Origin: Arthrobacter sp. B1I2
Lineage (GTDB): Bacteria; Actinomycetota; Actinomycetes; Actinomycetales; Micrococcaceae
NCBI RefSeq assembly: GCF_030816485.1
Contig: NZ_JAUSYC010000001.1
Coordinates: forward strand, 3,844,001-3,908,000
Reading direction: 5' to 3'
Length of the DNA stretch: 64,000 nt
Every line of letters begins with the position of its first letter. The first letter of the stretch is position 1. Of this stretch, positions 35,673 to 64,000 are shown piece by piece. The position numbers were made by a program, and so were the translations under genes. The notes beneath the pieces are model-generated. The model was given only the letters and a program-made list of their open reading frames with translations, ran no database searches and was not told the DNA's origin.

Positions 35673-36197
35673 TCAGTGCGAGCGGAGCCGGTTCCGGTTC
35701 CGGTTCCACCAGGCGAAGGCCCCGGCGGAAGCGCCCACCAGCAGCGTTCCAAGGGTGATGGGCAGAAGCGCAGGTCCGCCGGGGCCCTGGCTCCGGGCGG
35801 GCGCAGCGGCGGCCAGCCGGGAGGGCCCGGCGGATCGGGTGACCGGGCTGTTCCAGTCCTGTCCGCTGGAGGGGCCGGTAGGCGGCCGGTAGCCGGCAGC
35901 GGCTGAGGGGGTTTCAGTGGCTGGTTCGTCTGGGGCCACCTCTGTTGAGGCGGGGAGCGCGGCAGGGTCGGGAGTGTCTACCTGCGGCGGGGTCTCTGCC
36001 AGTGGCGGCTGCGGCTGGACAGGATGGGCGGGCGCGTCGGCCGGGGGCGCCGGCTGGGCAGGTGGCTGGACCGGCTCCTTGGATTTCCGCGGCCGCCCGG
36101 TTTGGCCCGGCTCCGGGTTGTTGGCAAGGACGGGCAGGCAGAGAAGCCCGCAGTCTGACCTGGCCTGGGTCCCTGAAACTGTGGAGGGCGAGGGCAT
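35673..36197 (-). CDS. Pro-rich protein with C-terminal membrane anchor, possible mycosin remnant
   Basis: A 174-residue frame. The N-terminus is short and unclear ([12 protein letters not shown] may be part of a signal). Residues 28-145 are Pro/Ala/Glu-rich and extended. Residues about 147-165 form a membrane segment ([20 protein letters not shown]), followed by a basic tail [12 protein letters not shown]. This Pro linker plus anchor plus Arg tail is also how mycosin proteases of type VII systems end, and the gene lies directly after the EssC/EccC-type gene. It could be a truncated mycosin, but no protease sequence remains. The start at 36197 has a weak ribosome site. Confidence 0.5.
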
Positions 36198-36264
36198 CTT
36201 CTACAGCGCCCTGCAGGGCCGCAAATTCCAGCAGATCGCGGCCCCGCCGTCACAGGCCTGGTTC
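36151..36264 (+). other. Possible coding relic on the + strand
   Basis: A 38-codon stretch reads [20 protein letters not shown] and on to KFQQIAAPPSQAWF with about 84% G/C at third positions, while the minus-strand frame opposite the gap looks less coding-like. No start codon with a ribosome site and no continuation into a gene is visible. It may mark a deletion junction. Confidence 0.3.
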
Positions 36265-62200: not shown

Positions 62201-64000
62201 TCACCCGGATCACGGCCCCTGCCTGGGCTTTCTTGTCGTCCTGGATCTTGTAGCTGACGCTCTCGTTGCCGGCGGCGTTCGGGGCCGTGAGCAGGACCTT
62301 TCCGCCCTCGACTGCCTCGACGGCGAGGTCGGCGCGGGCTTCGAAGCCGTTGGACACCAGGGTGATGGGGTCACCGTCCGGGTCCGAATCGTTGGTGAGG
62401 GCGTCGACGGCGATCTTCCGGCCGGGGCGGACGTCCACGGCGTCGTCGATGGCGATCGGTTTCTGGTTGCTGGCTTCCGCCGGTGCGATGCCGACGATCA
62501 CGGTGCCGGTGTTTTCGGCCCCGATGCGGTCCCGGACACGGTAGGTGAAAGTATCCGTGCCCGCCGCGTCGCCGGCGGCGGTGAATTCAAGGTAGCCGTC
62601 CCTGACCAGGGCGGTTCCCATCGCAGGGGCCTTGTCCACCCCGGTCAGCTGGACGGAGTCGCCGTCGGCGTCCACGCCGTCCAGGGGCACGGGGATGCGG
62701 ACGGTCATGCCGGCAACCACGCGTGCGGTGAGGTTCTTCGGTTCCGGCCGGGTGTTGAGCTGGTCGTCGCGGGCCCGGATCCGGATGGTCACCTGCTGGG
62801 AGTCTGACTGGCCGGACTCGTTGGTGACCTTGTAGATCGCGTAGACAGTCTTGGGCACGGCACCGGCGATGAAGCGTACCGATCCGCCCGACGTGAAGAT
62901 GCGCCCGTCCGCAGGGTCGGGTTGCTGCGCCAACTGGGGTTCAAGGGTGAGCTTGCCGCCGTTGGGGTCGGTGTCGTTGGCCAGCACCGGGATGGTGACG
63001 ACGTCGCCGGCACGGACGGTGGCCTCGTCCGGTTTCGCCTGCGGCGCCTGCAGTTTGGCCGGCGCGGGGACCACCAGCACGGCGATCTCACCGGTGGCCG
63101 AGGCTTTGCCGTTGGAGATGGTGTACTTGACGGTCAGCTGTCCCTGGGCCCGGATGTCGGTGATCCGCACAACGGAATGGTCAAGCACGGAGACGCTGAG
63201 CGGCAGCCCGTCCGCGGCCGTCACGGACTGGACCACCAGCACGCCGCCCGAGGGGTCGGAGTCGTTGCCGAGGACGTCCACCAGCACGCTGCCGCCGCTG
63301 GGCAGCAGCGCCGTGTCACGGACGGCCACCGGGGCGCCGTCACCGCTGCCGGGCACGACGTCGACACGCACCAGCTGCTGGGCGCTGGCCGGTCCGTTGG
63401 TGGCCAGGTAGGTGACGTAGTGCGCGCCCTCGGCGGTGGAATTGAACGTAAAGGTTTGCTGGTCCGCGCCCATGGTGGCGGTGGAGTTTCCGTCCGGGGT
63501 GACCTGCGCGAGCCGCAGTGCCCCGCCCTGCGGGTCTGAGTCGTTTTTCAGCGGAGCGATCACCGTGTCCACCCCGGCGACGGCAACCACGTGGTCCGCG
63601 TTGGCGATTGGCGGCAGGGCTCCGGGCGCCCGGACGTCGACGGTGACCTTGCCTTCCGCGGTGGACCGGCCATCCGAGACGGTGACGGTCACGGTTTTAC
63701 GCACCGGTTCCGCCCCGGAATCCTGGAAGCTGAGCAGTCCGTCCGGCCTGATCCGGACCTGGTCGCGTGGATCGCTGCCGGTGGCGCCGACCACGAACAG
63801 GTCGTCGCCGTCGGGGTCGATCCAGTCGGGAAGGATGTTCTGGCTGACCGCCTTCCCGGCCTGGACCACCAGCGTGGTGTTGCGGTTCGGTTTCTGCCGC
63901 GGGGCGGAGTTCTCCCCGGGCGGGACGATGTTAAGCGTGACGTCGGCCGAGGCGGAAAGGCCACGGCCGTCGTCGACCGTGTACTTGAATGTTTCCTGCC
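59253..64000 (-). CDS. Giant surface protein B, paralogue of A, 5' end outside window
   Basis: An open frame of 1581 visible residues runs off the right edge. Domain order matches protein A from its first visible residues: QETFKYTVDDGRGLSASADV corresponds to A's TETFNYSASDGRGLSATGQV, followed by WIDPDGDD, NDSDPQGG, NDSDPSGG, NDTDPNGG, NDSDPDGD and NDADPDGV repeats, then fibronectin III repeats and a Cys-containing tail (RSCTDLPG, NTCDGQGG, VPLC). It ends 167 bases before the start of gene A, so the two are tandem duplicates in one direction. The N-terminal anchor is not in view. The role is unknown; a surface-exposed or exported structure is inferred. Confidence 0.88.
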   Translation of the reverse strand, partial: QETFKYTVDDGRGLSASADVTLNIVPPGENSAPRQKPNRNTTLVVQAGKAVSQNILPDWIDPDGDDLFVVGATGSDPRDQVRIRPDGLLSFQDSGAEPVRKTVTVTVSDGRSTAEGKVTVDVRAPGALPPIANADHVVAVAGVDTVIAPLKNDSDPQGGALRLAQVTPDGNSTATMGADQQTFTFNSTAEGAHYVTYLATNGPASAQQLVRVDVVPGSGDGAPVAVRDTALLPSGGSVLVDVLGNDSDPSGGVLVVQSVTAADGLPLSVSVLDHSVVRITDIRAQGQLTVKYTISNGKASATGEIAVLVVPAPAKLQAPQAKPDEATVRAGDVVTIPVLANDTDPNGGKLTLEPQLAQQPDPADGRIFTSGGSVRFIAGAVPKTVYAIYKVTNESGQSDSQQVTIRIRARDDQLNTRPEPKNLTARVVAGMTVRIPVPLDGVDADGDSVQLTGVDKAPAMGTALVRDGYLEFTAAGDAAGTDTFTYRVRDRIGAENTGTVIVGIAPAEASNQKPIAIDDAVDVRPGRKIAVDALTNDSDPDGDPITLVSNGFEARADLAVEAVEGGKVLLTAPNAAGNESVSYKIQDDKKAQAGAVIRVKVSPDAALKIPVAKDDVVSQAETLGKSAVDVPVLKNDADPDGVASELKIGLPDGNPNARVTGDGTVRVTLGPADQLVPYTVTDVDGQSATAVIWVPGQGEQHPTLARTDVVEVMSGKEINLELADYVRVREGRTPRITQVDKVRVLGAAPENVVAGNGNALRYAALKDYVGPGSVTFEVTDGAGPDDPAGLKSTLSIITKVLPDPNANHPPTFSGTTLDVPAGESATLELANLAKDVDAGDQDKLKFEVDGALPEGFRASVDNAVLKVTPDTSKAAGWKGSIPLKVTDGRSEPARATVTATVVASNRPLPAANDDVVEKANAGKSETINVLANDFNPFPETPLRITTATVETGSAAGQPAVSGDSITVTPASGFKGVMVVRYTIMDKTEDVSRQTDGRVRITVRDRPDAPSAPTATEVRSRTAVLKWAPPSDNGAAITKYTVHSAGGFSQGCATTTCTLTGLTNDVKYVFTVTATNEVNESDPSPASNEIRPDEKPSPPEAPTVKAGDKNMEITWPAARTEGSAVKNYNLEISPPPANGAAVKNGVTGLSYTWTGLTNGVRYKVRAQAVNELGPSDWGQYSAEDNPAGVPAAPGAPTSSVASSVGTSNQLKVDWNEPNTNGDAIRNYYVTMSGGGGADQTQVVAGTVRTANFTANNSEASYTFTVQAENKAGKGAVSAASAPRRATGKLAQVSGVSATEANTGGAGRSVTINFRELTDAERNGSTYTEVSYTYRASTGQTGPIRPGQTVGGFTNGDATAITVVANSAVAPSSDASTPATANPYGSPGTPSASGTDGAENQKNLTLSWASPAAGSHDIAYTQIRIDGGGWERVAASGSRTINTGGFSERHSIDVQTVNSRGTGGPLASASAQSGAAKTRWTTRLGSGMDRSCTDLPGATSYDPARNTCDGQGGYDRPWMSHLDTFDVMCWKPHGTTYSGDGQWYYIMRGSPNATRWIQSLHTTLGSPAQSGVPLCTFPTGATP

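Follow-up and report, generated by a model that had tools for sequence, protein, structure and literature searches.

Here we describe an operon-like gene row on the minus strand of a 64,000-nucleotide stretch of DNA (G000:C1:3844001-3908000, called the window below) from an Arthrobacter-like genome of 4.68 Mb. The row occupies window positions 36263-64000, extends about 1.5 kb beyond the window end, and runs in the order giant 1, giant 2, MoxR, DUF58, TgpA-like protein, RDD-FHA protein, PP2C, FHA protein, Ser/Thr kinase, FHA-like/winged-helix protein and EssC-like ATPase. We favour, with moderate confidence, the reading that it is a phospho-gated type VII (WXG100) operon which incorporated, or shares ancestry with, a surface module of the PFNA family. 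From the letters, the original prediction had proposed a row under phospho-control whose ATPase is type VII-like, and this is supported; the ATPase has EssC/EccC matches, and WXG100-type genes follow it in many relatives. The gene set, its homology and linkage, and the conservation of its domains and residues are results of computation.

The comparisons rely on two samples. In an order sample of 119 genomes, a match above 900 bits (all at least 42% identical) was taken as an orthologue of the ATPase, which gives 32 genomes, counting G116, matched from residue 201 only, and G030, with the ATPase split over two contigs; the next-best matches lie at about 500 bits and 33-37%, apart from the second piece in G030 and short stretches. 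The other sample is an uneven one of 80 loci, the best 80 of 587 confirmed loci from a scan with the ATPase alignment, confirmed against its first row (L031). Some of these loci lie on short contigs, where "not in view" does not mean absent, and counts are given for the 70 loci with at least 4 kb of 5' flank or the 67 with at least 2.5 kb of 3' flank, loci with shorter flanks falling outside them.

A PFNA-type core outside bifidobacteria

Passages of three papers give the bifidobacterial PFNA order as pkb2, fn3, aaa-atp (MoxR), duf58 and tgm, joined in some species by prpC, hyp and fha, and state that the operon or its orthologues are confined to bifidobacteria (PMC8430577, PMC6803598, PMC10688814); a passage in one of them calls the MoxR-DUF58-TgpA neighbour arrangement frequent (PMC6803598). 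According to our analysis all five PFNA core genes (kinase, FN3 giant, MoxR, DUF58 and tgm) are present in the window row. The N-terminal 386 aa of the giant match seven genomes of family f4 with E values from 4e-23 to 4e-35, and the alignment of the giants has 15 invariant columns across 16 rows. The giant of one f4 locus (L059) is a Bifidobacterium gallicum protein (100%); of the 120 relatives listed for it, the 20 with an organism name are all Bifidobacterium. Five f4 loci read kinase-giant-MoxR-DUF58-TgpA, with PP2C next in two (L059, L060). Because of these giant matches and f4 loci, we regard our giants and the bifidobacterial FN3 proteins as homologues that form a single family and share their gene neighbourhood. 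Operons of the PFNA type also exist outside bifidobacteria: they occur in the Arthrobacter-like genome, Janibacter, Nocardioides, Propioniciclava and Microcella. Across the order sample, the 386-aa giant query matches 56 of 119 genomes (E <= 0.001; a few of the matches are fragments or weak), and TgpA matches at E <= 1e-20 are found in 70 of the 119.

The window row and PFNA share a homologous giant, MoxR, DUF58, TgpA/tgm, a Ser/Thr kinase, PP2C and an FHA protein, and the order giant-MoxR-DUF58-TgpA is kept. In contrast to PFNA, where pkb2 comes first, the kinase here stands after TgpA, RDD-FHA, PP2C and FHA genes, and the row has two giants, an added EssC-like ATPase and an Arthrobacter-like host. 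MoxR, DUF58 and the transglutaminase had been read as a separate envelope module. The three genes are indeed present and are the same three neighbours as in MoxR-DUF58-TgpA envelope modules, but the kinship with the PFNA operon had been missed. Unlike in those modules, the catalytic Cys of TgpA is lost and the set is tied to a kinase, FHA proteins and a giant.

The TgpA domain aligns to the 6g49 "protein-glutamine gamma-glutamyltransferase" chain (E 5.9e-06) from one residue past the catalytic Cys place. We take this chain to be P. aeruginosa TgpA, presumably with the triad Cys404-His448-Asp464, and by our count the spacing from the Cys place to the aligned His and Asp agrees with this triad. 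In the Cys column of 81 sequences (rows of at least 300 bits in the 80-locus set and of at least 130 bits in other loci) Asp occurs 64 times, Glu 7, Ser 6, Ala 2, Gly and Gln once each, and Cys never; the five f4 rows have Ser. Of the 81 sequences, 54 keep His in the His column and 39 keep Asp in the Asp column. Since Cys is missing from all 81 rows, an active transglutaminase is unlikely in this TgpA family, bifidobacterial tgm included, and expectations for enzyme assays of tgm would change with such a dead "transglutaminase".

Both giants have an N-terminal signal anchor predicted from hydropathy, and the N-terminal domain of giant 2 is, by its structure model, probably an eight-bladed beta-propeller. 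We had considered this anchored domain as an equivalent of EccB and dropped the idea: the model is a beta-propeller, and EccB is not among the structure matches shown, which is not an exclusion. Over their first ~400 residues the two tandem giants hardly differ, while the rest has diverged (window 57929-59086 against G000:C1:3908239-3909351), likely through gene conversion. Short giant forms with room for the propeller only also occur in ATPase loci (L052:4202-5461, 419 aa; L081:3785-5167, 460 aa).

The EssC-like motor and WXG100-type partners

The ATPase consists of a putatively ubiquitin-like N terminus, an FHA domain, two transmembrane helices (242-282) and three ATPase modules. In the first module (D1) Walker A and B are intact, in D2 Walker A is kept and Walker B lacks its Glu, and in D3 Walker A has Arg for Lys. 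Its best NCBIfam matches are EssC, EccCa and EccCb, all under their cut-offs (EssC 546 bits against 778; the two EccC models 346 against 509 and 287 against 347), and its best PDB matches are a 1,147-aa "FtsK/SpoIIIE" chain (4nh0, which we take to be an EccC), YukB and EccC5. The N terminus is modelled with high confidence as beta-beta-alpha-beta-beta-beta; the best PDB match of its profile is a redesigned ubiquitin (E 0.0035), and it has no YukD Pfam match. The closest relatives of the ATPase with organism names are Arthrobacter and Pseudarthrobacter, with 98% over the first 400 aa to Arthrobacter sp. SAFR-179.

Type VII secretion systems of the b type, found in Firmicutes, are built from EssC/YukB, EssB/YukC, EsaB/YukD and WXG100/LXG proteins, and those of the a type (ESX) from EccB, EccC, EccD, EccE and mycosin. 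As in the b type, the motor here is a single chain with FHA, two transmembrane helices and three ATPase modules, and relatives have WXG100-type partners; a putative ubiquitin-like domain is fused to the motor. In contrast to the b type, EssB/YukC has no match in the genome, the EssC cut-off is missed, and PFNA partners are found instead. An EccC-related motor and WXG100 partners are common to ESX and our row, which differs from ESX in that EccB and EccD are unmatched in the genome and the EccCa and EccCb cut-offs are missed.

Searches of the own genome returned no EccB (PF05108; 17 of the 119 genomes match, and 14 control organisms also gave none), no EccD (PF19053; a model with weak controls, two of which match, none over the cut-off, and which does find EccD in G111) and no YukC/EssB (PF10140; the B. 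subtilis control matched). EccB occurs in two of the 32 ATPase genomes (G007, G067), in neither near this ATPase. The absence of WXG100, EccB and EccD from the locus, noted by the original prediction, stands, as the WXG100 matches lie outside the window and EccB and EccD are unmatched genome-wide; a complete ordinary ESX set, which would have undone its single-system reading, was found neither nearby nor, by EccB and EccD, elsewhere in the genome. We reject an ordinary ESX nearby on these EccB and EccD searches. A second EssC-like ATPase of the genome, of FHA-FtsK type (L009:8451-12584, G000:C1 near 2577342), stands alone among housekeeping-looking genes, and a strong WXG100 gene stands alone at L010:1396-1779 (C1:181959); the two may form a separate minimal pair.

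A six-frame search of the own genome gave four Pfam WXG100 matches, two over the cut-off and all outside the window. For the WXG100-like protein at C1:1139406, identity reaches 70% over 86 aa with the WXG100-type protein of Arthrobacter oryzae (L101) whose gene lies 136 bp behind that of the ATPase, and 64% with the linked one of L110, so it is likely the unlinked counterpart of these proteins. Two proteins with WXG-like N termini, at C1:2210724 (503 aa, calpain-like protease domain) and at C1:2251277 (327 aa), are candidate type VII cargo; the frames L011:235-1746 and L012:784-1767 with such N termini are unlinked to any ATPase seen.

Judged with our own profile, a WXG100-type gene lies within 4 kb after the ATPase in 41 of the 67 loci with sufficient 3' flank; nine further loci have a WXG100 relative without the W, and 17 have neither. 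Ten of the small WXG100-type genes that follow the ATPase in relatives were chosen for comparison with Pfam, where six pass or equal the cut-off (L018, L021, L047, L052, L053, L041), three are below it and one has no match. From the sequences, WXG100-type proteins encoded after the ATPase in many relatives are the likely cargo. Proteins of ~430-460 aa without a convincing Pfam match follow the WXG100-type genes at two loci where the ATPase lies away from the core (L038:13765-15156, L041:13915-15216) and are possible LXG-like cargo. At L157-L163 and L169-L176, all seven f4 genomes show a WXG100 gene that exceeds the Pfam cut-off and a short EssC-like ATPase (frame of 593-761 aa) with one ATPase module matched, G082 having also a long one (1,524-aa frame).

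Linkage, phospho-control and competing explanations

The association of giant and ATPase, which the original prediction had put up for checking, is real: 28 of the 32 ATPase genomes have a giant match, against 28 of the 87 others (Fisher p 6e-8, on rows without independence). In 21 of the 32, no more than 20 kb separate TgpA and the ATPase, and a core gene (MoxR, DUF58 or TgpA) stands upstream of the ATPase in 56 of the 70 loci with sufficient 5' flank. In Janibacter Soil728 the kinase block precedes the giant, and giant-MoxR-DUF58-TgpA-ATPase-WXG100-WXG100 follow, while in Arthrobacter, Cellulosimicrobium, Cryobacterium and Promicromonospora the block lies between TgpA and the ATPase; the position of this regulatory block varies, yet it stays in the set, and in compact operons the ATPase comes directly after TgpA. 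In relatives the set recurs in many genera with changed internal order, and giants also occur without the ATPase. Two of the 17 EccB genomes, judged from match positions, have the core close to EccB: in G070 a giant-DUF58-TgpA row comes directly after a 1,394-aa FtsK/SpoIIIE-type ATPase, with an EccB-subtilase fusion ~2 kb beyond, and in G111 the distance between EccB and a MoxR-DUF58-TgpA-RDD/FHA-PP2C row is ~6 kb, with EccD, a subtilase and WXG100 genes accompanying this EccB. At L165:2802-5513, near a PFNA core, a single frame of 903 aa joins EccB to a mycosin-like subtilase.

The kinase has the motifs VAVKV, HRDIKP and DFG, and the phosphatase NED and DGMGG. Three FHA-type proteins had been expected beside the ATPase: that at 43273-45249 passes Pfam, and the RDD protein is supported through its likely orthologue (Pfam match in L041), its own match being a weak one to M. 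tuberculosis TB39.8, presumably FhaA, at E 0.02. The protein at 40705-41409 has FHA-like letters and no FHA library match, nor do its seven orthologues. In 94 of 98 ATPases, that of the window included, the FHA phospho-site keeps its Arg, Ser/Thr and Asn, at positions that we take from known FHA domains; outside the 80-locus set the count covers ATPases of at least 900 bits with frames above 1,400 aa. The four decayed domains (Rhodococcus L136, Mycobacterium L141, Mycolicibacter L143 and G062/L042) are all among the 24 ATPases with neither kinase nor core in view, and the other 74 are intact; this is a post hoc comparison (p about 0.003), where two mycobacterial and one Rhodococcus case may make only two independent events and the G062 match has a flagged stop codon. 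TgpA is absent genome-wide in L136 and L141, and also in Modestobacter L152, where the FHA is intact (the positive controls L081 and L095 were found); neither giant nor TgpA was found in G062. These few events fit a need for the FHA where the kinase module is present.

We infer phospho-gating, WXG cargo and a scaffold role in the following scheme. The kinase and PP2C would set the threonine phosphorylation of the operon partners, and the FHA of the ATPase, together with the other FHA proteins, would read it and link the EssC-like motor with its partners in the membrane. WXG100 and WXG-N-terminal proteins would be what this motor exports; their genes lie after the ATPase in many relatives and at scattered places in the own genome. 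The giants would reach the membrane via their own signal anchor and present outside an anchored beta-propeller on a long Ig/Fn3 stalk, and MoxR, DUF58 and the catalytically dead TgpA-like protein may serve as assembly scaffold of the envelope part.

Several observations weigh against this reading. The genome sample is not phylogenetically independent; TgpA lies on another contig in three ATPase genomes and was not found in three more; in Bifidobacterium genomes the PFNA core persists, and elsewhere in them there is only a short relative of the ATPase with one module; the WXG100-like protein at C1:1139406 scores just under the Pfam cut-off; and 12 of the 17 loci without adjacent WXG100 belong to Arthrobacter, Pseudarthrobacter or Paenarthrobacter. 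In five genomes, moreover, the ATPase and its nearest TgpA match share a contig but stand 94 kb to 1.7 Mb apart, and this separation also favours a reading with two independent systems, a PFNA surface or adhesion operon and an EssC-type WXG100 exporter, which would be neighbours mainly because they use the same kinase/FHA control and travel together. Each part does occur alone: the giant in 28 genomes without an ATPase orthologue, the ATPase in four without a giant match (in one of them, G009, MoxR and DUF58 remain, behind a long unmatched open reading frame), and Rhodococcus, Mycobacterium, Mycolicibacter and Modestobacter loci have exporter and WXG100 with no core in view, TgpA being absent genome-wide in the three genomes searched (Rhodococcus, Mycobacterium and Modestobacter). 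Linkage in many genera despite changed internal order, the ATPase directly after TgpA in compact operons, and the core near EccB-type genes in two genomes speak against independence, and we hold the two-systems reading possible but clearly the less probable.

That the ATPase exports or displays the giants themselves, as the original prediction had it, would agree with their co-occurrence and the operon-like row. The giants are, however, unlikely to be obligate cargo, because a signal anchor is predicted for them and because giants occur without this ATPase in 28 of the sampled genomes, Bifidobacterium included; WXG100-type genes after the ATPase in many relatives also argue against it, and we consider this reading quite improbable. 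Less credible still is a DNA translocase of FtsK/SpoIIIE type, for which the public names of the ATPase ("FtsK/SpoIIIE domain" or "DNA segregation ATPase") would speak: the FHA, the two transmembrane helices, the three modules and the WXG100 neighbours in relatives contradict it, FtsK scores 50 bits beside the 546 of EssC, and the apparent FtsK is a separate gene (L003). We reject the translocase, as NCBIfam scores and PDB matches favour EssC/EccC.

Beyond the favoured phospho-gated operon, we tentatively raise a bolder and less likely possibility, a third type VII architecture: an EssC-like motor with fused ubiquitin-like and FHA domains, without EccB, EccD or EssB, and with the PFNA core as its envelope part (propeller/Ig-stalk, DUF58 and pseudo-transglutaminase, MoxR-built and kinase/phosphatase-switched). 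If this were true, bifidobacterial PFNA would be a derived, motor-less descendant and not a host-immune invention. PFNA has been studied as a bifidobacterium-specific immune-sensing operon, and the wider hosts and type VII motors ask for a different original function; in the open-licence literature we found no title or abstract opening that links PFNA with type VII secretion and no paper with both terms. A candidate export system without EccB, EccD and EssB, with phospho-control written into its motor, would be available in tractable environmental hosts.

The gene row and its surroundings

The genes named by the original prediction lie on one strand in the order it gave, as open reading frames and Pfam confirm (Table 1). 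The Big_9 and fn3 repeats of both giants have Pfam support, as have DUF58, Transglut_core with TgpA_N, RDD, PP2C, FHA, Pkinase, and FtsK_SpoIIIE with FHA.

Table 1. Features of the row, in window positions
Feature	Position	Strand	Length and domains	Basis
Giant 1	59253..64000 (whole open reading frame G000:C1:3903253-3909477)	-	2,074 aa; anchor, propeller-like domain, Big_9/cadherin-like repeats, three fn3 stretches, Cys-containing tail	Open reading frame, Pfam
Giant 2	52976..59086	-	2,036 aa from GTG 59086; anchor aa 18-36, propeller aa ~50-377, Ig repeats, three fn3 stretches, Cys-containing tail	Open reading frame, Pfam, model
MoxR-type AAA+ ATPase	51924..52895	-	323 aa, ATG 52895	
DUF58 protein	50483..51826	-	N-terminal hydrophobic helices	PF01882
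TgpA-like membrane protein	47874..50486	-	Asp526 at catalytic Cys place (predicted pseudoenzyme)	
RDD-FHA protein	46168..47877	-	Zinc-ribbon, RDD membrane domain, C-terminal FHA	FHA via orthologue; weak here
PP2C-type phosphatase	45236..46171	-	Catalytic motifs	Pfam, motifs
FHA protein	43273..45249	-	Low complexity, zinc-ribbon-like segment, C-terminal FHA	Pfam
Transmembrane Ser/Thr kinase	41507..43276	-	Catalytic motifs, small outside domain	Pfam, motifs
FHA-like/winged-helix protein	40705..41409	-	234 aa from ATG 41409; FHA-like domain, then winged-helix-like region	Letters; no library match
EssC-like ATPase	36263..40708	-	1,481 aa	Pfam, NCBIfam, PDB matches, model
Pro-rich open reading frame (doubtful member)	35673..36197	-	174 aa, one transmembrane helix, between ATPase and ligA	Weak call

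The row from giant 1 to the ATPase has ten junctions, of which five are 4-base overlaps (DUF58/TgpA, TgpA/RDD-FHA, RDD-FHA/PP2C, FHA/kinase and FHA-like/ATPase), PP2C and FHA overlap by 14 bases, and the remaining four gaps measure 80-166 bases, lengths that rest on chosen start codons for three genes. The names MoxR, ligA and winged helix come from letters and position; MoxR is supported by AAA+/chelatase-like matches, the family name being our assignment. The ATPase is followed by the doubtful 174-aa open reading frame and then ligA, and upstream of giant 1 we find genes which we named from their letters as an adenylate cyclase, a PH-like protein and BirA.

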